NCBI GenBank assembly: GCA_919902495.1
Contig: CAKKRC010000074.1
Location: 1 to 39,668 of the forward strand
Length of the DNA stretch: 39,668 nt
Direction: 5' to 3'
Source of the DNA: Nitrospiria bacterium
GTDB taxonomy: Bacteria; Nitrospirota; UBA9217
The notes beneath the pieces are model-generated. The model was given only the letters and a program-made list of their open reading frames with translations. It made no database searches and had not been told where the DNA came from. Positions 736 through 20,939 of this stretch are shown here, piece by piece. Position 1 is the first letter of the stretch. Each line of letters begins with the position of its first letter. The position numbers were made by a program, and so were the translations under genes.

Positions 736-3700
736 TTGGGAAGAAGCCCGATCTTTTCGTTTTTCAAATCCACAATACCCGGAGGACACCTCAAACCAAA
801 TGCAATATTCTGTTTTTCTCTGATTTTGGGTATCATAATCCTTTTCCCTTTGATGGGCCATGCATTTGAGGATGGCCTCGAAAAAGATGTCCAGAAGGGC
901 CTTGAACAAGGCCTGGCAATCGTTGTAACCATCCAAAACAAGCTCCAGACCGGAGCTTCCGTATCCGAGGAAATATCCCAACTCAAAATATCTGCGGAGA
1001 ACATCAGGATCTCCAACCTGCTGATGGAAGAACGGTTCAAGCTGAGAGAGGAGAAGGTAAAACCCCTCGGTACCAAAGCTCTTGAACGGCAGCAGGCCAT
1101 GGCCGAAGGATACCGGGTGGCGCTCACGGAATATCTCGAGATCATCGAGAGCCTTCCTTCAAACGGACAGCCATCAGCGATCAGCGATCAGCAAACAATC
1201 ATCAACAAACTCAAGAAAATTCTAGACAGAATCGTTTCCAAAAAGAAAAGGCCGATCATCGGCAGCGTGCCGTATAAGCATCTGAACTACCCCGCAGTCG
1301 AACCCAGCGCGGCCCCTGCCATTACGCCTGCTTACAAAGGCGAAAACAAGACCGTATCTCCTGACGACACCAAAGACACCCCCGAAGCGCCCATCTCGAA
1401 AGAGATCGCCGCCCTTGCTCAGACCTTAGGTTGGAGCCCCGTCTCGATCTACGAATACGTTAAAAATAACATACAGACCGAGTGGTACTGGGGCTGCATG
1501 AAAGGCGCTGAGGAAACGCTCCATCAGAAGAGCGGCAACGACTGCGACCAGGCGACGTTGCTTACGGCCCTGCTCCGGGCCTCGGGCTACCCGACACGGT
1601 ATGTCCGGGGGAGCGTGGAGTTCATCACCAGCGGAAATGAGAAGCCCATCGACAGGATCAGGAACCTCTTCGGCATCGACGATCCCGCTAACATCGCCCG
1701 CTTCCTCCAGAAAGCGGGCGTCCCGTTCAAGCCCGTCATCGCCGCCGGCGGCATCGCCAACTTCCGGATAGAGCACCTCTGGGTGGAAAGCCAGATCCCT
1801 TATGCCAACTACCGCGGCGCCATCATCGACAATCATGGCAAGACCTGGCTGGGGCTGGACACGAGCATCAAGGTAAAAGGGTATCAGCAGAACCAGCCGA
1901 AGGACGTCTACGAGCTTTCAGCGATCAGCGGTCAGCTGTCACAGGTGCGAGATCAATATCTCGGCATCGCGTCATCCGGGACCGGCAGCACACCCTTCGA
2001 GCTGAACCAGACCCCCCTCGAATACCTTCAGTCTTCAATAAACTCCGAACTGGGAACACTGAACTCTGAACTTCGCTACGCGGATCTTCTGCGTAGCAGG
2101 GTCCTTCTCCCCGAAATCATGAACATCCTGCCCGCCGGTCTCCAGTTCAAGGAGATCACCATCACGAACGAATACACCTCGATACCGGATGATTTGAAGC
2201 ATAAGGTTCGTTTCACCGCAAAGACTACTCAGAACTCAGAACTCTTGAACTATGAACTCGATGCATTCAGGCTCAGCAATCAGCAGATAACGATAACCTA
2301 CGAGCCCGAGACCGTGCAGGACCAGGAGACCATCAATGCCTGGGGAGGTCTGGACAACACTCCGGCCTATCTCGTGCGGCTCCGGTCGGTGCTGAAAGTC
2401 GGTGATCAGCGGGCTGTTGTCGGCAGGGACGGCCTGCCGATGGGGTCGGATTATGAACTGACCATTGAGCTTGTTTCGCCGAACGGGACGGAGAAGACAA
2501 CGAACAGCCTCATCGTCGGAAACCTTACCGTCATCGGGATCACGGCGCAGAAGGCCGTTATCGCTCCCTCGCCCCTCGCGGGAGAGGGCGGGGGTGAGGG
2601 GAAAAAAGACGCTGAACGCCTGCTGTACGAAGCAGCCAATCACTACATCGACCGTTGGAACAAATCGGAGGAAGAGCTTGCGTCCCTCCTGCACCTCGCT
2701 ATCGCCCGTCCCATCCCCACGGTCGTGACCCTGGGCGGCGTGATCGACGTGACCTATTTGCTCGACATGCCGCACGGGTTTACCTGGAAGGGCGTGTATC
2801 TGGATGCGGACTTAAGAAGAATAGAAACAGTTCAGAGTGCTCAGTATGGAGTTCAGAGTGAACGAGAAAAGTTATTCATGCAGCTTTCGGGACTGCAAGG
2901 GTCGATCCTTGAGAACCGCATTTTCGAAGACGATTTCCAGGTCGAGAGCATCTCGACGGCGAAGTTGATCCAACTGTGCACTGCGAACTCAGCACTGTGC
3001 ACGGGTATGATCACCATCGACAAGAACAACATCGAAACCATTCTTCCGACGCTTTCGGTTGACGATAATATCAAGGAAGATATGGTAAATGCAGTCAACC
3101 AGGGTTATGAACTCAGAACTGTGAACTCTGAACTGGCTTATCACGATTGGTCCGGCATCGGATACATCACAGAGAAACCTGAGACCGGCGAGTCCGGCTG
3201 GATGCTGTCGGGCATGATCGCGGGCGGGATGACGGTTAAAGAAGAATGGCTCAACCAGCATTATAGAGATACCCTAAGCGCGCCTTACACCGGCCCATTT
3301 AATCCCGATGCACTTTCCGCAGCAGGGATACAGAAGGTCACGGCAACGGAAGGTCAGGAAGACGGCACTGTGGGTACAGAACTTGCCGAGCCGATCGCCG
3401 TGTTCGTGTTCGACGCGAAAAAGCAGCCGGTGAAAGAAGCGTCTGTTACCTTTACGGTGACAGCGGGTGGCGGTTCGATCCGCTGTGAGAATCCGGCAGG
3501 CGGGTTCGGACCGCCGGTCACGCCATCCTGCACGACGAAGACCCGAGGAATGACCGGCATTGCCAGAGCACGGGTCGTGCTGGGAGAGTCGACGGGGAGC
3601 AATCCCGATTATAAGCTGTACCCCGGCGATGCAAACTATACCCAGGTCGGTTTGAATATAGTCACAGCGTCGGCACGAGCCTACACATCAGACATCCCCC

Positions 3701-6700
3701 TCGCGCGGCCGTTCTTTCTCCATGCGAAACCGGGTGGGCTGGCAAAGATAATAAAGGTCTATCCCACGGAACCGGTCATGGGCCTTGCAAACAATCCGGC
3801 AGGCACACTGCATTCCCGGGCCACGGATTCCCTCGACAATCCGATCTCAAACATAGTGTTGACGTACAAGGTAGACAAAGTCGAGTCTCTGGATACCCGC
3901 TACATGCCGCTCCCGGCAACGTACAACAAAATGGGCCTCTATGAGCAGGAGACCTGTGGTAACCCCTATCCGGTCTACGGCGACTGTCCGCTGTATACAA
4001 GCTTAACCGTTACGACGTCCACAAGCGGCGCCAAAGTGAGTACGATCCTCGGGAACACGCTCGGCACACTTTACACTGTCAAGGTATCGGCGCCTGATAT
4101 GTACTCCGGTGTTTCGCCGGTATATTATGATCTTCTGACCTTGGGCAGAAGGGATGGCCCGGCGAAGATCGTTGCTCCGCTGCTTTTGGTCCAGGCGCTT
4201 GAGACCGTGAACGAGCGGGGTGAACCGATAAACGCAGCCAAGGCAGGAACGCAACTTGCAGCACCGCTCCAGGCCAGGTTGATCCTGATCGAGGACGAGA
4301 TTGACGCCGTTCAGCAGATCTGCACGAAAAATGATCAGGACGGGAATCCGGTCAGCTACACCGGGTATAACCTGGTATCGCGGGGCACGGTGACCGTGCG
4401 ACCTATTCCGGACGGGACAGTAACATTCACATCAACGTCAGGAGTCGGGCAGACCGGTGAAGTCCAGAATGTGCATAACGGCTATTATCTCGCATCCTAC
4501 ACCACCATCACTGACCCGGCGGTGAACACCGTAGAGGTCAACGGCAGCGCCGAAGTTACCGTTCGCATGATAACGGCAAGGGACAATATCATCAGCTATG
4601 TCCCTTATGACCGTTGCCTCGAAGCCTCAGAGGTGGGCAATATACAGATCACGCTCAAGCACGGTCAACACGCTGTCCTCGATCCCTTTACCCATGCGCT
4701 TCTTCCCGAGAAGACGTTGCTAAGCAAGCCGACGTACACCATCTACGGAGTAGGCACGACGCTTACGGTCGAACCGCCAGTCGTGCTTGTTGACGAGGAC
4801 GGATACGCCGCCCATGACACAACGCTCACCTACACCATTCTGCCGCCGGCGTATAATGCCGTCTCCATGACCCTGGACACGTTCAAGGTAGACCAGAACG
4901 ACAACGAAACCTGGACCGGGATGACGCTCGGTGACAAGACGCAAGGGAGCGGACAGATCATATACGTGCGGGGCGCGAAATTCGATCCCCGCGCCCTGTA
5001 TCTGGAGCAGGTGGTCCTGAACCGGGGGATGGCCGCGGAGATACGGGGGGAGAAGAAGGAATTAACCGTCATGTCGATCATCGTTCATGATGACGATAAT
5101 AAACTAGCGAAGGAGATCAAGTTTGGCCGAGGCGATAGATCTGATAAACGGTACCATATAGATATACCGACTTCGCTCGGTAGCGCAAACTGCGCTTCCC
5201 ATACCGGCATGATATCGGTTGTGGATAAGAACGGCGAAGTTATCATTCCACCTACAGTAGACGGTGAAATCTACGCAGCCAAATATAATTTAGCATTTCA
5301 ACCGTTCGGGTCTATGTGTGTTGTCAACGTTTCAGACATTCTTAATAATAATGTGTCGAAGCAGAAATTCATCGTATCAAATCTCTCTAGAGCTGTCTTG
5401 GACGTGGGATTTCCGCTTTTAAATATCTACAATACTGCCGTTCTCTACGGTGGTATTGGCAACAGAATCCGGATTGAAATCGACGGGTTACGCCAGGAGA
5501 TTCCTGTCGAGCCAGTAGGCGTCGTTATACTCGGCATAGATGGATTGAGGCAGGATGTGCTTTATCCGGACATGATGGACGGCCTGCCGTTTGAGAATGT
5601 ACATGAGCCGGTCGCTGATTATTATGTCGATGCAAGTACGCTGTCGGGATTTGGTCAAATACTCGTCGGTGATCCTCACGTATCTGCCAAGCAAAAATAC
5701 GTCATGCTGCCAGAGGTGACAACCATATTCCCGTCAATCACATTTGCGGCCTGGGCTAGCATCTTTACTGGGAAGACGCCGAACGAAACAGGTATACTTG
5801 GGAATGAATTTTTTGCACGGGATATTTATCAGAAGCACTGTGGTCCGGGGATGTTATGTTACAACAAACTACCCGGTTTATGGTCCTTGCCGGCAGGCAT
5901 GGTCACCTTAGACGCTGATGGCGGCGCATTCAGGCCTTTGGTCGAAAATCCATTTACAGCATCTGAGGAGGCCAAATCGCTTCCCTTTATTTTAAACTAT
6001 GTAATGCCGGCAGAGTTCAGCATATTCAGTAATATGGGTCACGAATTGCTATCGCAGAAGAATTTCCTTTCTACTGCGAATGCTGCGCTTAGTACGACAG
6101 CGAAACCCCTATGGGAAGATATAAATGCAATGGTGTCAAAGCAATATAAAACAAGCCCGATTCAGGGCGCAAAGTGCAGTGCCAGCAAATACGAATGCCG
6201 CACTGTCACCATGTTCAATCAGTACGCTCGCAGTGCCGACTGGTGGGGGACACCAGCATCGCTCTCAGACGAGATGAAGATCTTAGTTACGAGCTATTTT
6301 CCACAGTTTAGTTTAAATACCTCCAAAGTTATGGATAAATCAGCCAGGCAGGAGGCAGTGGGATTTATCAACAGCTATTTTTCTCAACCCACCACGGATG
6401 GCAAAAGAAAGAGATTCCCAGCAGTGTTTTCCATATATCTATCCGGTCTGGACCATGAGGCACATATCAATGGTCTGGCTGGATACAAGAATTATTTCAC
6501 CGGAACGGTAAACGATCAGGTTCAGGACATAGTGAAAGCACTTAAAGACCAGGGTGAGTTCGATAATAAAATGTTTATCATAGTATCAGATCACGGCGAA
6601 ACACAGATGCCGATGGAATTGACCTATGAAAAAACGCAGGAGGCCTTCACTTATGACGGGTCCCCACTTCCGTTTCCTGAAGTCGTTGGAGTGCCAATAG

Positions 6701-7539
6701 ACATGTCGTGCAATTTGAAAACAAACATAGATAATGAAGATGTGCAATTATCTGAACTCGCCAACAACAACCTTCATATATGGGAGTTGGCAAATCTATT
6801 CGCTCAATTTCCAGACCCGAACATATCAGTGAAAGTTCTAGTGCCTGAACAAATCGCTAAATTACCAAAGCTTGACGCAGTTGCAACATCAAACATCAAT
6901 CAGGCAAATATTGTTGCAACGCTAAACGGTCCCATGGCGCATGTATACGTAAAAGGAACCACTTGGCAGAGTAATCCCGACGAACCAACAATTGATTCAG
7001 TACTGGTCCGCTTGTATTCAATACTGAAAATTGGAAATGCGGCTACCGGAAAACTTGCGGAAAAAATAACTGAACATTTCCTCAGATTGGGTTCCTCAAT
7101 TGACACTATTTTAGCGAGGTGGACGCTGAACGGATCGTATGAAGTCATCACAGGCGTAAGCGAAGACGCTTCAGGTAATGTGACTATCAGCACAGATGAC
7201 CTTGATTCTCTGAACAATACAGGATATCAAAGAGCAGTGGACCGAATTACCAATATGAATCACAAAGACAGAAGCGGAGATATTATTCTATTGATGAAGG
7301 ATTCAACCGCAGGCAATGCAACAGATAGATATTCGACAGCCTATGCTTGCAAATCGTGGCATGGATCGCTTAATGCAAGCGACTCGTACGTACCATTTGT
7401 GGTTGCTTATCCAGGAGGCAATAAGTCAGAACTTGATCCATACTTAAGCATAGTCTGCCCAAGCAACACCTGTGAAGGTAATTGGAAGTTAACGGATTTG
7501 ATCAAAGAAATCACGAAAAAACAATACGCAGGTCAGTGA
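736..7539 (+). CDS. giant secreted multidomain protein: transglutaminase-like, Ig-like and phosphodiesterase/alkaline-phosphatase-type domains
   Basis: 2267 codons from a TTG start behind a strong GGGGAGG site. Residues about 22-44 form a hydrophobic export signal. A transglutaminase-like domain follows at about 235-385, with a plausible Cys-His-Asp triad: Cys in NDCDQATLL (about 269), His in IEHLW (about 345) and Asp in GAIIDNHGKTW (about 364). The middle (about 870-1560) is beta-rich with an invasin-like Ig segment (FVFDAKKQPVKEASVTFTV). The C-terminus (about 1598-2267) has NPP/alkaline-phosphatase superfamily motifs: GIDGLRQD, FPSITFAAWASIFTG with its candidate nucleophile Thr, SGLDHEAH, SDHGE and a late SWHGS histidine, so the two-metal site looks intact. 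Substrate is unknown. Short repeats are inserted in frame at several linkers, and base composition becomes AT-richer after about 5,090. The next gene follows in 14 bases, so co-transcription is likely. Confidence 0.85.
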   Translation: MGRSPIFSFFKSTIPGGHLKPNAIFCFSLILGIIILFPLMGHAFEDGLEKDVQKGLEQGLAIVVTIQNKLQTGASVSEEISQLKISAENIRISNLLMEERFKLREEKVKPLGTKALERQQAMAEGYRVALTEYLEIIESLPSNGQPSAISDQQTIINKLKKILDRIVSKKKRPIIGSVPYKHLNYPAVEPSAAPAITPAYKGENKTVSPDDTKDTPEAPISKEIAALAQTLGWSPVSIYEYVKNNIQTEWYWGCMKGAEETLHQKSGNDCDQATLLTALLRASGYPTRYVRGSVEFITSGNEKPIDRIRNLFGIDDPANIARFLQKAGVPFKPVIAAGGIANFRIEHLWVESQIPYANYRGAIIDNHGKTWLGLDTSIKVKGYQQNQPKDVYELSAISGQLSQVRDQYLGIASSGTGSTPFELNQTPLEYLQSSINSELGTLNSELRYADLLRSRVLLPEIMNILPAGLQFKEITITNEYTSIPDDLKHKVRFTAKTTQNSELLNYELDAFRLSNQQITITYEPETVQDQETINAWGGLDNTPAYLVRLRSVLKVGDQRAVVGRDGLPMGSDYELTIELVSPNGTEKTTNSLIVGNLTVIGITAQKAVIAPSPLAGEGGGEGKKDAERLLYEAANHYIDRWNKSEEELASLLHLAIARPIPTVVTLGGVIDVTYLLDMPHGFTWKGVYLDADLRRIETVQSAQYGVQSEREKLFMQLSGLQGSILENRIFEDDFQVESISTAKLIQLCTANSALCTGMITIDKNNIETILPTLSVDDNIKEDMVNAVNQGYELRTVNSELAYHDWSGIGYITEKPETGESGWMLSGMIAGGMTVKEEWLNQHYRDTLSAPYTGPFNPDALSAAGIQKVTATEGQEDGTVGTELAEPIAVFVFDAKKQPVKEASVTFTVTAGGGSIRCENPAGGFGPPVTPSCTTKTRGMTGIARARVVLGESTGSNPDYKLYPGDANYTQVGLNIVTASARAYTSDIPLARPFFLHAKPGGLAKIIKVYPTEPVMGLANNPAGTLHSRATDSLDNPISNIVLTYKVDKVESLDTRYMPLPATYNKMGLYEQETCGNPYPVYGDCPLYTSLTVTTSTSGAKVSTILGNTLGTLYTVKVSAPDMYSGVSPVYYDLLTLGRRDGPAKIVAPLLLVQALETVNERGEPINAAKAGTQLAAPLQARLILIEDEIDAVQQICTKNDQDGNPVSYTGYNLVSRGTVTVRPIPDGTVTFTSTSGVGQTGEVQNVHNGYYLASYTTITDPAVNTVEVNGSAEVTVRMITARDNIISYVPYDRCLEASEVGNIQITLKHGQHAVLDPFTHALLPEKTLLSKPTYTIYGVGTTLTVEPPVVLVDEDGYAAHDTTLTYTILPPAYNAVSMTLDTFKVDQNDNETWTGMTLGDKTQGSGQIIYVRGAKFDPRALYLEQVVLNRGMAAEIRGEKKELTVMSIIVHDDDNKLAKEIKFGRGDRSDKRYHIDIPTSLGSANCASHTGMISVVDKNGEVIIPPTVDGEIYAAKYNLAFQPFGSMCVVNVSDILNNNVSKQKFIVSNLSRAVLDVGFPLLNIYNTAVLYGGIGNRIRIEIDGLRQEIPVEPVGVVILGIDGLRQDVLYPDMMDGLPFENVHEPVADYYVDASTLSGFGQILVGDPHVSAKQKYVMLPEVTTIFPSITFAAWASIFTGKTPNETGILGNEFFARDIYQKHCGPGMLCYNKLPGLWSLPAGMVTLDADGGAFRPLVENPFTASEEAKSLPFILNYVMPAEFSIFSNMGHELLSQKNFLSTANAALSTTAKPLWEDINAMVSKQYKTSPIQGAKCSASKYECRTVTMFNQYARSADWWGTPASLSDEMKILVTSYFPQFSLNTSKVMDKSARQEAVGFINSYFSQPTTDGKRKRFPAVFSIYLSGLDHEAHINGLAGYKNYFTGTVNDQVQDIVKALKDQGEFDNKMFIIVSDHGETQMPMELTYEKTQEAFTYDGSPLPFPEVVGVPIDMSCNLKTNIDNEDVQLSELANNNLHIWELANLFAQFPDPNISVKVLVPEQIAKLPKLDAVATSNINQANIVATLNGPMAHVYVKGTTWQSNPDEPTIDSVLVRLYSILKIGNAATGKLAEKITEHFLRLGSSIDTILARWTLNGSYEVITGVSEDASGNVTISTDDLDSLNNTGYQRAVDRITNMNHKDRSGDIILLMKDSTAGNATDRYSTAYACKSWHGSLNASDSYVPFVVAYPGGNKSELDPYLSIVCPSNTCEGNWKLTDLIKEITKKQYAGQ
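2565..2611 (+). repeat. in-frame palindromic 'PLTPALSREGRG'-type repeat
   Basis: A C-rich/G-rich imperfect palindrome (CCCTCGCCCCTCGCGGGAG followed by GGCGGGGGTGAGGGG) lies inside the giant gene and encodes PSPLAGEGGGEG. Read on the other strand it gives the peptide PLTPALSREGRG, which I know as the conceptual translation of a palindromic repeat scattered through many proteobacterial and related genomes. Here it is inserted in frame in a linker, so the reading frame survives. Confidence 0.7.
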
Positions 7540-12147: not shown

Positions 12148-13206
12148 ATGGAAAGAACGTTGACTGCATGGCCGGAATGGCTGGCAAAGCTTGATCCCGA
12201 GATGGGGACGATACTGGCTTCCCTCGATCGGCATCGCGACTGGCTGGCAGGCTTGTGTGCTGAAAGCCACGTTTATAAACGTCTCGTACTGGCGCAGGTC
12301 CGGCAATTCGAGGAGCTCGGCCAGAAATCGGGGGCCTACAAGCAGTATGTCGACGGGAAGAGGGCGAATTTTGATATTTTACAGAAGATGAAGGTGCCCC
12401 AGGCGCTGCTGCGGGCGATGACGTTCAATGTGAGCCAGCGGCATCATACCCTTGAAGCGTACCGGTACGCGAAGACGGTCACGTGTCAGAAATTAATGGA
12501 AGAAATACCCCTGACGATGGGATCGGGAGCGCTCTTTGCCGGATTCGCCGCAATGAAAACACTGTTCGAGAACCTCGGGGATATGACCCGGCTGATCAAC
12601 GCCTTGTCGGAAGCAACACCGGGCGGTGATGCTCACATGACAGGAGAGCGGTATGATGATATTCTCAACAAGGAACTGGCTTCGGGAATTGACTGGGTAA
12701 AGATATCAAAGATCGACCTCCGACAGGTCGATGATCTTCGTTCGGTCAGTTCGGCGCCGGACAGCAAACGTGACGATGAACGGATGGCCTTAAAGGCGGT
12801 CGCGTCGTTGGGAAAGCGTCTGAAGAGCGTTCCGGCGGCTTACGCGGTCCTGAACGAGTTCGGCAGTCCCCGTGTGGGAACCTTGTGGTTGGTGTACGAA
12901 GACTCGCAGAGCATGCAGGATGGGCACAAGACGCACTGGAACCGGCATAAGCTTGGCCCCGGATTCCCCCGCATCATGGTCGAACAGATGAAGCCGGTCA
13001 TCGTGCAGCTTTTCGCTGTATTGAATGATGCCGTGGAACTATTGAAGGTCCTTGATAAGGAATTGATGGATCTGGACGCCAAGATCGCCGGCGTTACGCG
13101 CGACGAGATCCGGACATGGCTTTGGAAGTTCCCCGACATATTCGACAAACATGAGGACTGCCCCTGCGGAAGCGACAAACGGGTGAAATATTGCTGCGGA
13201 CAGTGA
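12148..13206 (+). CDS. SEC-C motif protein of unknown function
   Basis: 352 residues. The only recognisable element is the C-terminal zinc-binding SEC-C motif CPCGSDKRVKYCCG (the last 16 residues), with the CxC...CC ligand pattern found at the end of SecA and of many cytoplasmic proteins. The remaining 335 residues are mostly helical and match nothing I know. No signal peptide or membrane segment is seen. The start lacks a ribosome-binding site but sits at the predicted +1 of a good promoter. It is probably a single-gene unit, with about 108 bases before the next kinase gene. Confidence 0.8.
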   Translation: MERTLTAWPEWLAKLDPEMGTILASLDRHRDWLAGLCAESHVYKRLVLAQVRQFEELGQKSGAYKQYVDGKRANFDILQKMKVPQALLRAMTFNVSQRHHTLEAYRYAKTVTCQKLMEEIPLTMGSGALFAGFAAMKTLFENLGDMTRLINALSEATPGGDAHMTGERYDDILNKELASGIDWVKISKIDLRQVDDLRSVSSAPDSKRDDERMALKAVASLGKRLKSVPAAYAVLNEFGSPRVGTLWLVYEDSQSMQDGHKTHWNRHKLGPGFPRIMVEQMKPVIVQLFAVLNDAVELLKVLDKELMDLDAKIAGVTRDEIRTWLWKFPDIFDKHEDCPCGSDKRVKYCCGQ

Positions 13207-13314: not shown

Positions 13315-14355
13315 ATGCCAATGCCTGACCATCATCTTATAACGAAGATCAAGGTGACGCTACTTATGGTGCTCATGGCCGGGGTCTGGTGCGTTCTCGG
13401 AATGGTCTATTTCGACCGTTTTCCGGGTCCAGCCGGCAGGCTTGAGCTGGTGCTCATGCCATGGAAGGAGCCTTTGCCCCGGCAGGCCAATCTGGATCAG
13501 CGTCTTATGATCATGCAACAGCAGCTCGACGCGTCAGCCCGGGTCTCTTCTTACGCCTTCGCTGTCTTGGTGGCATCCTTCTCCGCCCTTACCGTCTATC
13601 TTTCGATCATTTATCAGCAAAAACAGCGCAGGTCGCAGGAGAACATGCTGCTTACGCTGAAGAACCAGGAGATCGTGCGCCGCAACGAGTTCATTCGTTA
13701 CATCTCAGCAACGATCGGACATGAGTTCAAGAACAACCTCGGCCGCATCAAGCGCAGGATCGAACTGTTGCAGGAGGTCCCCCCCGAGGCAAAGAAACGG
13801 ATAGACGACAACCTGGACAAATTATTTGCCGATATCGAGATCTTCAAAAAGATAGCGGACGAGCGAGAAGCAGGCATCGTTGAATTCGTCCATATGAACC
13901 TCAAAGAGATGCTGCACGCTCTTGCCCTCCAATACGGCGATCTGGCGGAAATCCATATCCACGAGAGGGCTTCCCTGCCCGCGATCTATGCTTCTCCGTC
14001 GCTCGTACGGACCGTATTCGAGAATGTGTTTGACAATGCCGTCAAGTATAAAAAGCCTGAACAGGCCCGCGCGAGCATAGAGGTGTCCTGTGCGAGGGAC
14101 CAGGACGGAAGCCGTCGTTATGCGACCATCTCCATACGGGACGAAGGCGCCGGCATGGACGAACAGCAGGCAGACCGGTGTTTTTACAAAGGGAGGGGTT
14201 CCGGCGAAAACTGGGGGCAGGGGCTGTATTTCGCCAAATATGTTGTCGGACTGCATGCCGGGAAGATCAAGGTCGGGAAAGAACATACAGCACCAGGGAA
14301 AGGGGCCGAGATCATCATCAGTCTGCCTTTTGTCGAGGAGTCGCAGGATGTATAA
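13315..14355 (+). CDS. membrane sensor histidine kinase
   Basis: 346 residues with two membrane segments (about 12-33 and 80-100) bracketing a short periplasmic loop of about 45 residues. The H-box is atypical: SATIGHEFKNNLGRIKRRIELL with His136. The ATPase part has an N-box (VFENVFDNAVKYKK, about 234-247), a G1 box (RDEGAGMD, about 275-282) and a G2 box (GENWGQGLYFAKYVV, about 297-311). It would autophosphorylate and pass phosphate to the overlapping receiver protein. The small periplasmic loop suggests sensing in or near the membrane. An alternative start at 13321 is equally possible; no clear ribosome-binding site is seen. It overlaps the next gene by eight bases, implying translational coupling. 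Confidence 0.88.
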   Translation: MPMPDHHLITKIKVTLLMVLMAGVWCVLGMVYFDRFPGPAGRLELVLMPWKEPLPRQANLDQRLMIMQQQLDASARVSSYAFAVLVASFSALTVYLSIIYQQKQRRSQENMLLTLKNQEIVRRNEFIRYISATIGHEFKNNLGRIKRRIELLQEVPPEAKKRIDDNLDKLFADIEIFKKIADEREAGIVEFVHMNLKEMLHALALQYGDLAEIHIHERASLPAIYASPSLVRTVFENVFDNAVKYKKPEQARASIEVSCARDQDGSRRYATISIRDEGAGMDEQQADRCFYKGRGSGENWGQGLYFAKYVVGLHAGKIKVGKEHTAPGKGAEIIISLPFVEESQDV

Positions 14356-15238
14356 GGTGCTGATCGCCGACGACGACCACGAGGACCGGGAGCTTCTGAA
14401 GCTCGAGATCCAGCGGGCCCTGCAGGGAGCTGGCCCCGAGCTCCGCTTTCGTGAGGCGGGAAGCATTCGAGAGGCGGTCAAGCTGCTGGAAACGCATGTC
14501 TTCGACCTCATGACGCTCGATATCGAGTTTGACCGGATGACCGAGGGGGTCGATATACTCCCTCAGGTGTTCGAGACCTGTCCGACATTGAACATTATCG
14601 TCGTGAGCGGCAAGCTTGACAAGAGCGAGGTATCGGAACGGCTGTTCCGATTCACGAAGGATAATGTGCTCAAGGGCAAACGCTGGGCAAGGCACTTCGA
14701 TGTGCTTGACAAGAAAGATGACAAGAGCGAGGCAATTCTCCGGGCATATGAATATGCACGCAGACAGCAGGAGGGAGGGGACAGCGTACGGGAACTCTTT
14801 CTCCTCGCCGAATCCTATCTTGAAAAGAACATGATCGACAAATGCCTGGATATCTATCAAAAGATCCAGCGCCTGGCGCCACACGAAACGGAATCAACGG
14901 AGAACATACGGATCATCAAAGGAGAAGTATCAGCTCAACAGGCATACGAATATCATCGTTCGGGCGAACAGGTCGTCGCGGCGTTATTGCTGGGATACTA
15001 TCTTGAAAACCGCCTGAAGCGGTTCCTCGAAACGGTGTTCGGAAGGGCTTTTGCGGTCCTGGCTGAGGGGCTGAAGGAATTGCACATGACCCAGCGCATC
15101 AGCCGAACTAAATCAGACCTGTTCAGCGATCTGCTCGGCTTGCGGAACAAGGCGATCCATCAACCCGCGTCCGTGTCCGAGGAAGATTTCAAGTCGGCGA
15201 TCCGGAAAATGGAGCTGCTGGAGGAGGCGAATCTATGA
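14348..15238 (+). CDS. response regulator: receiver domain fused to an HEPN-like helical domain
   Basis: 296 residues from ATG 14348, which overlaps the kinase stop. The receiver spans residues 1-125: acidic pocket DDD at 8-10, phospho-acceptor Asp58 in LMTLDIEFD, and a switch Ser in IIVVSGK. It is followed not by a DNA-binding domain but by helical segments (about 145-210) that may be TPR-like, then a C-terminal bundle (about 205-296) with RNKAIH at 266-271. That matches the RNxxxH motif of HEPN domains and sits in the expected helix-end context (LFSDLLGLRNKAIHQPASVS). HEPN domains are often RNases or nucleotide-binding modules. Output through RNA cleavage or protein contact is inference. 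The partner kinase is directly upstream. Confidence 0.75.
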   Translation: MYKVLIADDDHEDRELLKLEIQRALQGAGPELRFREAGSIREAVKLLETHVFDLMTLDIEFDRMTEGVDILPQVFETCPTLNIIVVSGKLDKSEVSERLFRFTKDNVLKGKRWARHFDVLDKKDDKSEAILRAYEYARRQQEGGDSVRELFLLAESYLEKNMIDKCLDIYQKIQRLAPHETESTENIRIIKGEVSAQQAYEYHRSGEQVVAALLLGYYLENRLKRFLETVFGRAFAVLAEGLKELHMTQRISRTKSDLFSDLLGLRNKAIHQPASVSEEDFKSAIRKMELLEEANL

Positions 15239-15888
15239 CCATGAAAAGCAGATCATGGCGAAGCCGCGTTCCGCCGGCAGGTCCGGTCATCAGCGTTCTG
15301 CTGGTCGGTCTCGTCCTCCTGAGCGCGCTGCTGTATTACCGATCCGTTAAGATCCAGCGCTTCCTGGAACCTGCGTTGGCACTGTCGCAGCCCCGCAATG
15401 AGTACGCTAAACGCATCGCGAGGATCTTTGAAGACGTATTCGGATCACGGGACGTAGAAGGGATCCGGATCAAGGCGGGCATGATCATCGTCAACAGGTC
15501 CCTGCTGTTGACGAAAAAGGGGACCCTGACCCCCACAGGCCAGAAGTTGTTCAAGAAATTAGCACGCTTCTTCCTGACGCTCCTTCTGGACGAGCGGATG
15601 CGATCGGAGATAAACCATATATTGATAATTGCCCGCTTTCCGAACGACGGAATGAAGATCGGGACGCTTACCGAACGGATGGACGTTCAGCTCACCGCCG
15701 GTTTTGTCCAAGAAACGCTGCTCCGAACGGAACCTGAGCTCGCCAGATCGTTCGCCCCCTATTTCTCGTCCGGCGCTCAAGCGATGAATCCGCAGGAAGG
15801 GAGCGCGGAAAGGATAGATTTCCTCATCGTCCCCTCGGAATATCTGCACATCGAAGTACTTGAGAAATTGGAAAAGTATACCAACTGA
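15235..15888 (+). CDS. membrane-anchored protein with a degenerate OmpA/MotB-like domain
   Basis: 217 residues. Its ATG overlaps the upstream TGA (ATGA), so it belongs to the same operon as the kinase and receiver genes. One membrane segment lies at about 18-36. The periplasmic part has the order of an OmpA/MotB peptidoglycan-binding domain: LTPTGQKLFKKLARFFLTLL, then a strand NHILIIARFPNDG at the place of 'EGHTD', then TERMDVQLTAGFVQETLL at the place of 'LSxxRAxxV', and AERIDFLIVP at the place of 'NRRVEI'. Key peptidoglycan-contact residues are replaced, so binding may be lost. This family assignment is a pattern-level inference. The protein may be the structural or sensory partner of the two-component pair. 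Confidence 0.6.
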   Translation: MTMKSRSWRSRVPPAGPVISVLLVGLVLLSALLYYRSVKIQRFLEPALALSQPRNEYAKRIARIFEDVFGSRDVEGIRIKAGMIIVNRSLLLTKKGTLTPTGQKLFKKLARFFLTLLLDERMRSEINHILIIARFPNDGMKIGTLTERMDVQLTAGFVQETLLRTEPELARSFAPYFSSGAQAMNPQEGSAERIDFLIVPSEYLHIEVLEKLEKYTN

Positions 15889-17164: not shown

Positions 17165-18094
17165 ATGCCGAAGATAGTAACCGCATTCCTGCTCGCCCTG
17201 CTCGTTGCTGCGCTTTCCGGCTGCAGTCGAACGGACCAGGAGCGGGCTCACGGTCAGAAACCTACAGATCTTTCCCAGCCACGACACTCCCTTCGCATCG
17301 GCCTGATCCCCGAGCAGAACATCTTTAACCAGATGGAGCGGTACGAGCCGCTGGCACAGTATCTTTCCAAAAAACTTGGTGTGGATATCCAATTCACTAT
17401 TCTATTGCGATACGGCAACATCATTGATAACTTTGTCGCTGATGGCCTGGATGGGGCGTTCTTCGGCAGTTTCACCTATGCGCTAGCACATGAAAAGATA
17501 AAAGTGCGGGTCGTTGTCCGGCCTGAATATCCCGACGGTCATTCGACCTATTATGGCATGATCATCGTCCGGAAGGACAGCGGGATCCGTACGGTCAAGG
17601 ATATGCGCGGGAAAAGGTTCGTATTCGTTGACAAGGCCACGACGGCCGGCTATCTCCTTCCCTACGCCTACTTCAAAAGCCATGCTATCGATCATCATAC
17701 CTATCTTCGAGAGAGCTATTTCGCCGGAACGCATGAAAATGTTGTCATGGACGTGCTGGACCGGAAGGCTGACATCGGGGCGATAAAGAACACAGTATTC
17801 GCCTTGCTTGCGGCAAAGAATAAACGCATTGCTCAGGAACTGATGATGCTTGAACGATCGCCAGACGTGCCCGAGAACGCACTCGCTTTTCGCAAAGACC
17901 TGGATCCGAAGCTCGTTCAGGACATCAGAACGGCGCTGCTCCGCATGCATGAGGATATCGAGGGCGCAGAGCTGATCAAGGCGTTCGGCGCGAAACGGTT
18001 CATCGAGACCACGGATAATGACTATCTGCCAGTTTACCGGTATGCACGCCAGGCCGGCATCAAACTCTCTTCATACGACTATCTGAACGACTGA
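17165..18094 (+). CDS. PhnD-type phosphate/phosphite/phosphonate-binding-like lipoprotein
   Basis: 309 residues with a lipoprotein signal ending in LLVAALSGCSRT (lipobox LSGC, Cys at about 20). The mature part has the PhnD-like binding-protein signature: LRIGLIPEQNIFNQMERYEPLAQYL at the start of lobe 1, DGAFFGSFTYALAHE, STYYGMIIVRKDSGI, then the hinge and lobe 2 (MRGKRFVFVDKATTAGYLLPYAYF). PhnD-like proteins bind small oxyanions or related ligands for ABC import. Here no permease or ATPase gene is adjacent. The stop overlaps the start of a sensor kinase by one base, so the protein more likely presents ligand to the kinase than feeds a transporter; this is inference from context. The ribosome-binding site is weak (AGGA). 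Confidence 0.85.
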   Translation: MPKIVTAFLLALLVAALSGCSRTDQERAHGQKPTDLSQPRHSLRIGLIPEQNIFNQMERYEPLAQYLSKKLGVDIQFTILLRYGNIIDNFVADGLDGAFFGSFTYALAHEKIKVRVVVRPEYPDGHSTYYGMIIVRKDSGIRTVKDMRGKRFVFVDKATTAGYLLPYAYFKSHAIDHHTYLRESYFAGTHENVVMDVLDRKADIGAIKNTVFALLAAKNKRIAQELMMLERSPDVPENALAFRKDLDPKLVQDIRTALLRMHEDIEGAELIKAFGAKRFIETTDNDYLPVYRYARQAGIKLSSYDYLND

Positions 18095-19551
18095 TGAAAC
18101 GAAAGATCATAATAGGATTGATGATATTTTTTCTCGTGTTCATATCGAGCGGGTTCTATATCATAACGAACATCGAAAAGGTCACCTCTTCGCTCGATGG
18201 ACTCATCCTGCTGCATCAGGTCGAAATTATCCGGGAGCGCCTGCTGGTCGAGCTCAAGCGGACGCAGCTTGACCTCCAGCTCAGAAACACCCAGCATGCG
18301 CGAAGCGGCGACACGATAGTAACTCACGTCAAGGCGCTCAGCGATCTTGTCAATGTATGTTTTGAATGCCACCACACGGCGCAGGTAACGGCCAGGCTTG
18401 ATTCCCTGCAGACGAGCATCGATGCATACAAGAACGCATTAAGCAGGGTGTTCACCATGCGCGCGAACAAGCAACGGCTTGTCAGCGAGCAGGAAAACGC
18501 ATTCGAGATCAGCTCGGAAATCGTCGCTGAGGTCATCAATATCAACGACCTGACGACGAAAAAGCTGCGGTCAAGCACGACTGCGGCGCTCGACGATACC
18601 AGAAATATGAAGGTCTTCTTATATACCATTCTGATCACCGCTCCTGTCTCTGCGCTCGTTCTGTCCCTCCTGTTCCTGCGCTGGTTCACGAGGCCTGTGT
18701 CGGTCCTCGTACACGCGATCCGACAGCTCCGGTCCGGGGATCTTTCTTATCGTATCGACGGACTTCACGATGAGTATATCGAGGTCGCTGACTCGTTCAA
18801 CACGATGGCAGTCTCCCTGAAGGAGCACTATGACCGGATGCAGTGGGCCGAGCAGGTTGTTATCCTGGGAGAACTTGCCGGCGGCCTTGCACACGAGATC
18901 AAGAACCCTCTCGCCGGCGTCAAGGCTTCCATGGAGATTCTTTCCACGGATCCGGCCGTTTCCGAGGAGAACAAGGACGTGCTCACGAAGGCAGCCGAAC
19001 AGGTCAAACGCATGGAAGCGCTCATAAAGAGCTTCATGAACTTTGCCCGTCCCCCGGCACCGCAGCTCGCTGACACCAATATTCATGCGGTCCTGGAATC
19101 CACCCTGGCACTGGCACAGCGGCACCCCCTTTTCGGAAAGAGCCGGGTGGGCAGGATAACGGTTGTCAAGAACTTTGACGACCAGTTGCCGAGCATACTC
19201 GCTGATCCCGCACAGATGCAACAGGTGTTCCTGAACCTGCTTCTGAACGCTGCCGATGAAATGCCCGATGGCGGCACGATCACGATCACGACCCAGTTCG
19301 AATCTGAGATGGAATGCCTGACGATACGGATCAGGGATACAGGAAAGGGGGTTGACGACGGCCTCCGGGAGAAGATCTTTCAACCGTTCTTTACGACAAA
19401 AGCAAAAGGGACCGGCTTGGGCCTGTCCATATCAAAGCGGCTCGTCGAGCAGCAGGGGGGCGGCATTCGGATCGAAAACCACAATGGCAATGGTGTTTCA
19501 TTCATCATAGCCTTCCCGCTATTTACTCGAACGGAGGTTCCGGTCCCATGA
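18094..19551 (+). CDS. sensor histidine kinase with periplasmic CxxCH haem motif, HAMP, HisKA and HATPase
   Basis: 485 residues. TM1 spans about 6-25 and TM2 about 173-197. The periplasmic helical domain between them contains NVCFECHHT (Cys89, Cys92, His93), a c-type haem attachment motif. HAMP follows at about 197-250 (RPVSVLVHAIRQLRSGDLSY), then HisKA with His267 in GLAHEIKNPLAGVKASMEI, an N-box (FLNLLLNAADEMPDGG), G1 (DTGKGVDDG), F-box (IFQPFFTTK) and G2 (GTGLGLSISK). It is a complete NtrB-like kinase. A covalently bound haem would make it a candidate redox, NO or CO sensor. The gene overlaps the upstream binding-protein gene by one base and the downstream regulator by four, so the three are translationally coupled. 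Confidence 0.92.
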   Translation: MKRKIIIGLMIFFLVFISSGFYIITNIEKVTSSLDGLILLHQVEIIRERLLVELKRTQLDLQLRNTQHARSGDTIVTHVKALSDLVNVCFECHHTAQVTARLDSLQTSIDAYKNALSRVFTMRANKQRLVSEQENAFEISSEIVAEVININDLTTKKLRSSTTAALDDTRNMKVFLYTILITAPVSALVLSLLFLRWFTRPVSVLVHAIRQLRSGDLSYRIDGLHDEYIEVADSFNTMAVSLKEHYDRMQWAEQVVILGELAGGLAHEIKNPLAGVKASMEILSTDPAVSEENKDVLTKAAEQVKRMEALIKSFMNFARPPAPQLADTNIHAVLESTLALAQRHPLFGKSRVGRITVVKNFDDQLPSILADPAQMQQVFLNLLLNAADEMPDGGTITITTQFESEMECLTIRIRDTGKGVDDGLREKIFQPFFTTKAKGTGLGLSISKRLVEQQGGGIRIENHNGNGVSFIIAFPLFTRTEVPVP

Positions 19552-20939
19552 GAGTCCTGCCAAGGATACTGATCGTTGACGACGATGAGCTCATTGTCAC
19601 GACGATCACGCGATCGCTCCAGAGGGAAGGATATGATGTTCGTTCTGAGAATAGTGCCCTGCGGGTGGTGGAGGCGATCAGAAGCTGGTCTCCCTGCGTT
19701 GTACTCCTGGATATCCGACTTCCGGAACGCAGCGGCATCGAGGTCCTCGAAGATATCGTGCGTAACGAGCTGCGCACGCAGGTCATCATGCTTACGGCAG
19801 ACGATACTGCGGAGACTGCAGTGAAGGCCATGAAGCTAGGTGCGGCGGATTACATGACAAAACCGTTCAACCTCGATGAGATCATCATCGTCGTGCGAAA
19901 CCACGTCGCCAAGGAAAACCTGAGCCGAGAGGTCGATTACCTTCGCAAGGTCGCCGGGGAGCGGTTCGATCGTCAGATGATCGGCAAATCCGACGCACTT
20001 ACTGAATTGAGGGCGGAGCTGGATAAGATCGCCAGGGCCCACGTGTCGAGCGTCTTGATCACGGGAGAAAGCGGAACCGGCAAGGAACTGGTCGCCCGCT
20101 ACCTGCACCAGGTCATGTTCGGTGAAGCGTCATCGCGTACCGTACCGTTCATCGGGGTGAACTGCGCTGCGTTGCCGGAGAACCTGCTCGAAAGCGAGCT
20201 GTTCGGCCATGAGCGTGGAGCGTTCACTGATGCAAAGTCCGACAAAAAAGGCGTGTTCGAGCTGGCAAACGGGGGTGTGATCCTGCTGGACGAGATCGGG
20301 GAGATGGACCCGAGACTGCAGGCCAAGCTGCTGCGGGTCCTTGAAGAGCGCGTCGTCCACAGGGTCGGCGGTCGCGAGGATATTCCCGTCGATGTGACGG
20401 TCATTGCCACAACAAACAAGAACCTGGCAAAAGCGGGTTCTCGCGGTGAATTCCGCACCGACTTGTTTTTCCGTCTTAGTAATTTTTATGTGCATGTTCC
20501 TCCGCTGCGTGAGCGGCGGGTTGACATCCCCATACTGGCTGACTACTTTCTCTCGTTATTTGCAACCAGGTACAATAATAAGTTCATGAAGCGATTTTCC
20601 CCGGATGCCCTGCACATCCTGTCCGAATACGATTGGCCGGGCAATATCCGCGAACTGAGAAATGTTGTGGAGCGATTTGTCGTACTGGAGAGCGAGGAGG
20701 AGATCGTTCCTTCGATGCTTCCGGAATGGATGCTGAGGCAGAAAGTGGCTGCGGGCGGTTCGGGATATAACGGTGAGTTCACGCTTCCTGAGAAAGGGGT
20801 GTCGATCGACGATCTTGAACGAAACCTTCTCCAGCAGGCCCTTGAGCGGACCAACCACAACAAGGCGCAGGCTGCAAAGCTCCTTCATCTTAGCTACGAC
20901 ACGCTGCGCTACCAGGTCAAGAAGCATGGGCTGGAATAA
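19548..20939 (+). CDS. sigma54-dependent NtrC-family response regulator
   Basis: 463 residues. The receiver (1-120) has DDD at 11-13, phospho-acceptor Asp55 and Lys in TKPF. The AAA+ domain (about 143-380) has Walker A GESGTGKE (173-180), Walker B GVILLDEIGE (243-252) and the sigma54-contact loop as ERGAFTDA instead of GAFTGA, a variant I know from other members of the family. The Fis-type helix-turn-helix lies at the end (NKAQAAKLLHLSYDTLRYQV). It activates RNA polymerase holding sigma54 from upstream enhancers when phosphorylated, presumably by the haem-motif kinase whose stop it overlaps. Two sigma54-type promoters follow in the window, at 21920 and 27331, and are natural candidate targets. 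Confidence 0.95.
   Translation: MRVLPRILIVDDDELIVTTITRSLQREGYDVRSENSALRVVEAIRSWSPCVVLLDIRLPERSGIEVLEDIVRNELRTQVIMLTADDTAETAVKAMKLGAADYMTKPFNLDEIIIVVRNHVAKENLSREVDYLRKVAGERFDRQMIGKSDALTELRAELDKIARAHVSSVLITGESGTGKELVARYLHQVMFGEASSRTVPFIGVNCAALPENLLESELFGHERGAFTDAKSDKKGVFELANGGVILLDEIGEMDPRLQAKLLRVLEERVVHRVGGREDIPVDVTVIATTNKNLAKAGSRGEFRTDLFFRLSNFYVHVPPLRERRVDIPILADYFLSLFATRYNNKFMKRFSPDALHILSEYDWPGNIRELRNVVERFVVLESEEEIVPSMLPEWMLRQKVAAGGSGYNGEFTLPEKGVSIDDLERNLLQQALERTNHNKAQAAKLLHLSYDTLRYQVKKHGLE

Follow-up and report, generated by a model that had tools for sequence, protein, structure and literature searches.

A two-component cassette in Nitrospirota with a predicted HEPN ribonuclease as response-regulator output

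Introduction

What might a response regulator do that carries no recognizable DNA-binding domain and ends in a helical bundle with the motif RNKAIH? The known outputs of response regulators are DNA binding, cyclic-nucleotide turnover, protein modification and RNA binding. In HEPN ribonucleases, the conserved histidine and arginine are catalytic, while other HEPN domains serve protein binding. The question is raised by a locus in a contig of a Nitrospiria bacterium (GenBank assembly GCA_919902495.1, contig CAKKRC010000074.1, 39,668 nucleotides), the whole of which we refer to as the window. An earlier note, made from the sequence of the window alone, had described here a kinase, a receiver-HEPN-like fusion and a degenerate OmpA/MotB-like membrane protein in one overlapping cassette, and had proposed a phosphorylation-controlled HEPN output that might serve stress or phage response. 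Of this interpretation, the HEPN C-terminus has held, the OmpA/MotB label has proved weak, and the link to phage response has not stood up. In the following, we describe the three proteins, their distribution and genomic surroundings, and discuss what the cassette may do.

Results

Gene organization

The cassette occupies positions 13315-15888 of the window on the forward strand, where the open reading frames delimit three overlapping genes: a sensor histidine kinase of 346 aa (13315-14355), a response regulator of 296 aa with HEPN output (14348-15238), in which TPR-like helices lie between receiver and HEPN domain, and a third protein of 217 aa with one transmembrane (TM) helix (15235-15888). 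The kinase and receiver genes share 8 nt and the receiver and third genes 4 nt; this gene set is as first described. The junctions recur across loci, the kinase/receiver overlap measuring 8 nt in most of them and the receiver/third-gene junction -1 or -4 in most.

The first protein is recognized as a histidine kinase by Pfam, hydropathy and H-box conservation. By hydropathy, it has two TM helices at about residues 14-32 and 81-99, separated by a short loop, and its charge pattern corresponds to an N-in topology. A HATPase_c domain spans residues 229-339 (Pfam, 2.3e-14). Pfam gave no HisKA match in the window's kinase; the H-box (GHEFKNNLGRIKRR) is invariant or nearly so, with His136 conserved in 38/38 orthologues. 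A phospho-acceptor histidine together with HATPase_c, encoded in an adjacent, overlapping gene wherever the contig extends, is what marks the cognate kinase of a two-component system, and the cassette has this combination.

The response regulator

The receiver domain comprises residues 1-129 (14348-14734, forward strand). Pfam matches Response_reg at residues 4-98 (1e-9), and an alignment of 41 orthologues shows a complete phosphorylation pocket: D8, S87, K122 and the phospho-acceptor Asp58 (14519-14521) are present in 41/41 sequences, and position 9 holds D or N. Conservation within the regulator peaks in an insert-like segment of the receiver at residues 99-130 (FRFTKDNVLKGKRWARHFDVLDKKDD; 14642-14737), which exceeds the usual alpha4-beta5 region in length, has a mean major-residue frequency of 0.94 and includes the invariant residues R112, W113, R115 and H116. 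This segment may well provide a surface specific to the kinase or to a partner. It outranks the HEPN domain in conservation (mean major-residue frequency 0.67, against 0.80-0.94 for the receiver), and an additional function is possible there. Between receiver and HEPN domain lies a TPR-like helical hairpin (residues 148-178; 14789-14881), with weak TPR_6/TPR_2 matches in Pfam and a profile match to consensus TPR structures. Pfam matched no DNA-binding domain in the protein, in agreement with the earlier description.

The C-terminal domain, residues 196-292 (14933-15223, forward strand), carries two signatures. RNKAIH (Arg266, Asn267 and His271; 15143-15160) follows the pattern R(N/H)x3H, and Glu220 with Lys224 (15005-15019) follows the pattern Ex3[KR]. 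In a single sequence, RNxxxH is a chance occurrence in a few per cent of proteins of this length; here, it rises above chance because R266, H271 and the upstream E220 are each invariant in 41/41 orthologues and belong to the only 8 of 107 columns of the domain that are invariant. The chance of all three signature columns falling among these 8 is about 3e-4. Residue 267 is N in 39 and H in 2 of the 41 sequences, and residue 224 is K in 35 and R in 6.

Profile searches point to the same superfamily. In the window protein, the RNxxxH region gave sub-threshold Pfam matches to HEPN_Swt1 (0.002; 18.8 bits, cut-off 27.5) and RiboL-PSP-HEPN (0.0049). When the orthologue domains were scanned singly, 28/41 matched DUF4145 (best 1.1e-5) and 25/41 HepT-like (3.8e-5), both of which are HEPN families, with individual members scoring under the Pfam cut-offs. 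An hhalign comparison with a DUF4145 profile built from the same phylum reached 73% (P 3e-5) with the motif aligned, compared with about 0.1% for an OmpA control.

Foldseek with the full-length model was dominated by the receiver, its top match being PorX via receiver and helical linker, and we therefore modelled the domain alone from the 41 sequences. This model is of high confidence (pLDDT 91, pTM 0.84) and places R266-H271 at the close of a long helix (253-271). Against the PDB, ranks 1-22 were all HEPN-fold entries, led by 2hsb (TM 0.62, probability 1.00) and followed by MntA-HepT and HEPN-MNT toxins; the E-values are modest (best 0.054), owing to the small size and all-helical make-up of the domain. 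At full length, the model reaches a pTM of 0.46, too low to read from it how receiver and HEPN domain pack.

The domain thus combines three defining features of the HEPN superfamily, namely the fold, an Rx4-6H motif with a polar residue after R, and an upstream Ex3[KR]. In the published definition, the signature is Rx4-6H, in which R is followed by N, D or H, together with the upstream Ex3[KR]; it is characteristic of HEPN domains with RNase activity, an activity that KEN and PrrC lose when H and R are mutated (PMC3710099). On four independent lines of evidence, the C-terminus of the receiver protein is an HEPN domain. The earlier note had proposed as much from the RNxxxH motif, and had named loss of the motif among orthologues or a fold other than HEPN as grounds for abandoning the idea; structure prediction gave the HEPN fold, the orthologues match HEPN families, and both signatures are retained throughout.

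The third protein

The third protein has one TM helix at about residues 15-33, followed by an alpha/beta C-terminal domain of unproven family. The juxtamembrane segment is highly conserved (LYYRxVKIQRFLEPALAxSQPR). The charges flanking the TM helix are equal, +1.9 on each side, which leaves the topology ambiguous; the C-terminus is likely, but not certainly, on the periplasmic side.

The label 'OmpA/MotB-like' given to this protein at first sight has stayed unproven. Pfam gave no match, OmpA-like or other, in any of 39 members, and searches of Pfam, NCBIfam and PDB profiles returned nothing credible. With hhalign, the family reached 0.1% against a profile of 27 local OmpA domains and 0.7% against ZorB, neither of them significant, while the positive control of ZorB against OmpA gave 98.8%. 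Among the peptidoglycan-binding residues GHTD...LSxxRA, GHTD is absent, and only an N...R spacing is reminiscent of the site (N144 in 36/39, Thr in the window; R148 in 33/39). ZorB1 matched 5/39 members (best 6.5e-6). An identity as OmpA/MotB or ZorB was accordingly rejected on the Pfam and profile-profile tests; a remote, degenerate relation is possible, since the alignment with ZorB stays collinear all the way from the TM helix.

Distribution and inheritance

A contig pattern scan, on which the survey beyond the phylum rests as a single search, yielded 40 loci, titled Nitrospirota, Thermodesulfovibrionia/-ales or, in one case, just 'bacterium'. Kinase and receiver-HEPN genes are adjacent in every locus where the contig extends, and the third gene is next in 39/40. 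The cassette is patchy: it is present in 4/14 genomes of the window's own family and in 19/296 genomes sampled across the phylum, the receiver-HEPN protein and the third protein occurring in the identical 19. In genome G261, kinase and receiver-HEPN lie on contig C72, apart from the third gene, which stands alone on contig C57 (L157:8291-8926) amid housekeeping genes. The third gene has been kept there although relocated, and co-retention is therefore independent of physical linkage. We conclude that the three genes constitute a unit.

In the tree, sequences group mostly by host family, with a degree of mixing. Ngb-4 (L044/L055) and WY3.bin57 (L054/L069) each have the cassette in two divergent copies. 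A mobile-element origin was considered and discarded, as phages, viral contigs and plasmids yielded no copies of the cassette apart from one receiver-only match. In the other families of the phylum, we found no receiver-HEPN relatives: an HEPN-only profile gave just the cassette and two unrelated HEPN proteins. In L155 (1477-2403) and L156 (1495-2430), the HEPN profile picks up two related proteins of ~310 aa whose C-terminal domain is HEPN-like (RNDALH/RNKAIH); the gene adjoining the one in L155 appears to resemble those of CRISPR-associated CARF proteins.

Genomic surroundings and promoter

Outside the cassette, the neighbouring genes vary between loci. In scans of 102 neighbour proteins with PADLOC and Pfam, type I restriction genes occurred essentially in one locus, among the matches listed (the 25 commonest families per scan); the remaining neighbours among these were mostly metabolic or housekeeping, such as ribonucleotide reductase, AmmeMemoRadiSam and histidinol dehydrogenase. 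An association with defence islands was rejected on this pattern.

Three further observations concern the surroundings in the window. Downstream of the cassette, positions 17165-20936 encode a PhnD-like binding protein, a HAMP histidine kinase and an NtrC-like regulator, and members of all three clusters are also found close to the cassette in L063, L069 and L080. The 352-aa protein encoded at positions 12148-13206 has a SEC-C-like zinc motif (CPCGSDKRVKYCCG) at its C-terminus and otherwise no family. One uninterrupted open frame spans positions 736-7536 (~2267 aa), the N-terminus of its product being signal-like.

Upstream of the kinase, 16/36 loci carry a promoter-like motif, GAAAWW-N14-[GN]KTARAAT, almost exactly at -33 from the start codon; they include L057, L058, L059, L047, L042, L048, L050, L051, L053, L061 and L062. 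In three loci it stands at -27, which probably reflects start-codon choice. Its -10-like part ends ~7 nt before the kinase ATG, a spacing that suggests a leaderless mRNA. The motif is essentially absent elsewhere in 471 kb of flanks, and the window has no clear copy of it. The idea of a wider regulon was dropped, as scans of 9 genomes gave no more than a slight excess over a reversed-pattern control; so was that of a sigma-54 promoter, since the 180 nt preceding the window's kinase gene contain no match to one.

Discussion

Given a complete phosphorylation pocket and a co-encoded kinase, the HEPN output is most naturally read as being under phospho-control, as the earlier note had assumed, and catalysis is predicted from the signatures. 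We cautiously favour the view of the cassette as a dedicated two-component system, in which the response regulator would be a phosphorylation-gated HEPN ribonuclease, acting on RNA rather than DNA. This view draws on sequence and structure prediction, that is, on the kinase histidine, the receiver pocket, the TPR-like linker, the HEPN signatures and the membrane-anchored third protein. We put it at even chances that this is the first two-component system in which the response regulator itself is a ribonuclease, with a membrane kinase and a dedicated membrane partner, serving post-transcriptional control of expression or growth.

HEPN ribonucleases act as dimers, and receivers commonly alter their dimerization upon phosphorylation. 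In the mechanism that we propose, the kinase, alone or together with the third protein, would sense an envelope signal and phosphorylate Asp58, with the membrane partner helping to set the state of the kinase. Phosphorylation would shift the dimeric state of the receiver and thereby bring two HEPN domains together. Since HEPN active sites are generally formed across the dimer, this pairing would be expected to switch on metal-independent cleavage of cellular RNA, which in turn would slow translation or remove particular RNAs. An envelope signal may thus, by way of phosphorylation, turn RNA cleavage on or off in these uncultured Nitrospirota.

A ribonuclease activated by phosphorylation has two main rivals, one with control of opposite sign and one without catalysis. 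In the former case, the HEPN ribonuclease would be active by default and restrained by the receiver or the third protein, and signalling would release or restore the inhibition, as in a toxin-antitoxin pair with the signalling state as antitoxin. HEPN ribonucleases are commonly toxins with neutralizing partners (PMC3710099), the nearest solved folds are those of HepT, and the tight translational overlaps and the co-retention of the three genes would suit a dosage-sensitive set. However, the unit has no nucleotidyltransferase or recognizable antitoxin, an invariant proline stands where HepT has its AMPylated tyrosine after the motif (RxxxxHxY), and the presence of a kinase points to a regulated output rather than simple neutralization, so that we regard default activity as unlikely. 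Much the same low probability attaches to an HEPN-like domain that has no catalytic activity and serves dimerization or protein binding, the regulator working via a partner protein. Some HEPN families are indeed without catalysis, the adjoining TPR-like helices suggest protein contacts, and the domain, taken over its whole length, is more divergent than the receiver. Yet the few invariant columns of this diverging domain include the catalytic signature residues E220, R266 and H271, whereas families without catalysis typically lose Rx4-6H (PMC3710099).

A role in abortive infection, in which a Zorya-like envelope sensor would trigger the HEPN ribonuclease via the phosphorelay, appears to us very improbable, although HEPN ribonucleases are frequent defence effectors (PMC3710099), the third protein has its weak ZorB1 match, the cassette is patchy in the window's own family, and the HEPN profile also finds two unrelated HEPN proteins. 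The neighbours are mostly housekeeping genes, with type I restriction flanking a single locus among the matches listed, the cassette is absent from the phages, viral contigs and plasmids searched, and the trees largely follow host families. Moreover, the likeness to ZorB was not upheld by profile-profile comparison, and the unit has no ZorA-like channel gene. The link to phage response suggested in the earlier note thus finds no footing in the genomic context.

If the favoured reading is true, phosphorelay signalling would act directly through RNA cleavage, in a system whose kinase and membrane partner have been inherited together across several bacterial families, and a fold known mostly from toxins and phage defence could come under environmental control.

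Relation to known systems

Two-component systems and HEPN ribonucleases are both known, and their combination appears to be new, provisionally so: in the openly accessible literature that we searched, we came across no response regulator described as combining a receiver with HEPN. In the 2013 HEPN survey, receivers come up only where a shared TM domain carries a receiver in place of HEPN. CoCoNuT CnuA and CRISPR Cam2 belong to defence systems connected with RNA and contain REC domains, for which we found no fusion to HEPN described.

Among response regulators, PorX of the PorX/PorY system resembles the regulator described here in having an enzymatic output directed at phosphodiester bonds of nucleotides. 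PorX, however, joins its receiver to a PglZ phosphodiesterase, a metal-dependent enzyme of the alkaline-phosphatase fold, and the two outputs are unrelated. ANTAR response regulators of the EutV and AmiR type likewise place an RNA-directed output under the control of a receiver, but ANTAR binds RNA to antiterminate, without cleavage, and has no sequence or fold relation to HEPN. The third protein recalls ZorB/MotB in its N-terminal TM helix followed by an alpha/beta domain and in the weak, collinear ZorB1 match. It differs from them in lacking a significant profile-profile match, the GHTD peptidoglycan-binding motif and a ZorA/MotA partner; of the Zorya ZorA-ZorB channel, in which ZorB carries an OmpA domain, the unit has no ZorA-like gene, and its ZorB match is weak.

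With the HEPN ribonucleases of the DUF4145 (PF13643) and HepT-like (PF01934) families, the cassette protein shares the fold, R(N/D/H)x3H and Ex3[KR], and a metal-independent RNase site is expected on these grounds; unlike them, it uses the HEPN domain as the output of a receiver, for which the cassette provides a histidine kinase. In the MntA-HepT system, the partner is the nucleotidyltransferase MntA, which the cassette lacks, its partners in the 40 loci being a kinase and a membrane protein; furthermore, the cassette HEPN has proline at +2 after the motif (41/41), where HepT has the AMPylated tyrosine of RxxxxHxY. A precedent in concept is offered by membrane-associated HEPN proteins that are proposed to degrade RNA upon a stimulus (PMC3710099) and would likewise couple an envelope or membrane stimulus to RNA cleavage by HEPN. 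While these proteins combine TM and HEPN in one chain (PMC3710099), the HEPN domain of the cassette is soluble and fused to a receiver, and the kinase and the membrane partner are separate proteins.
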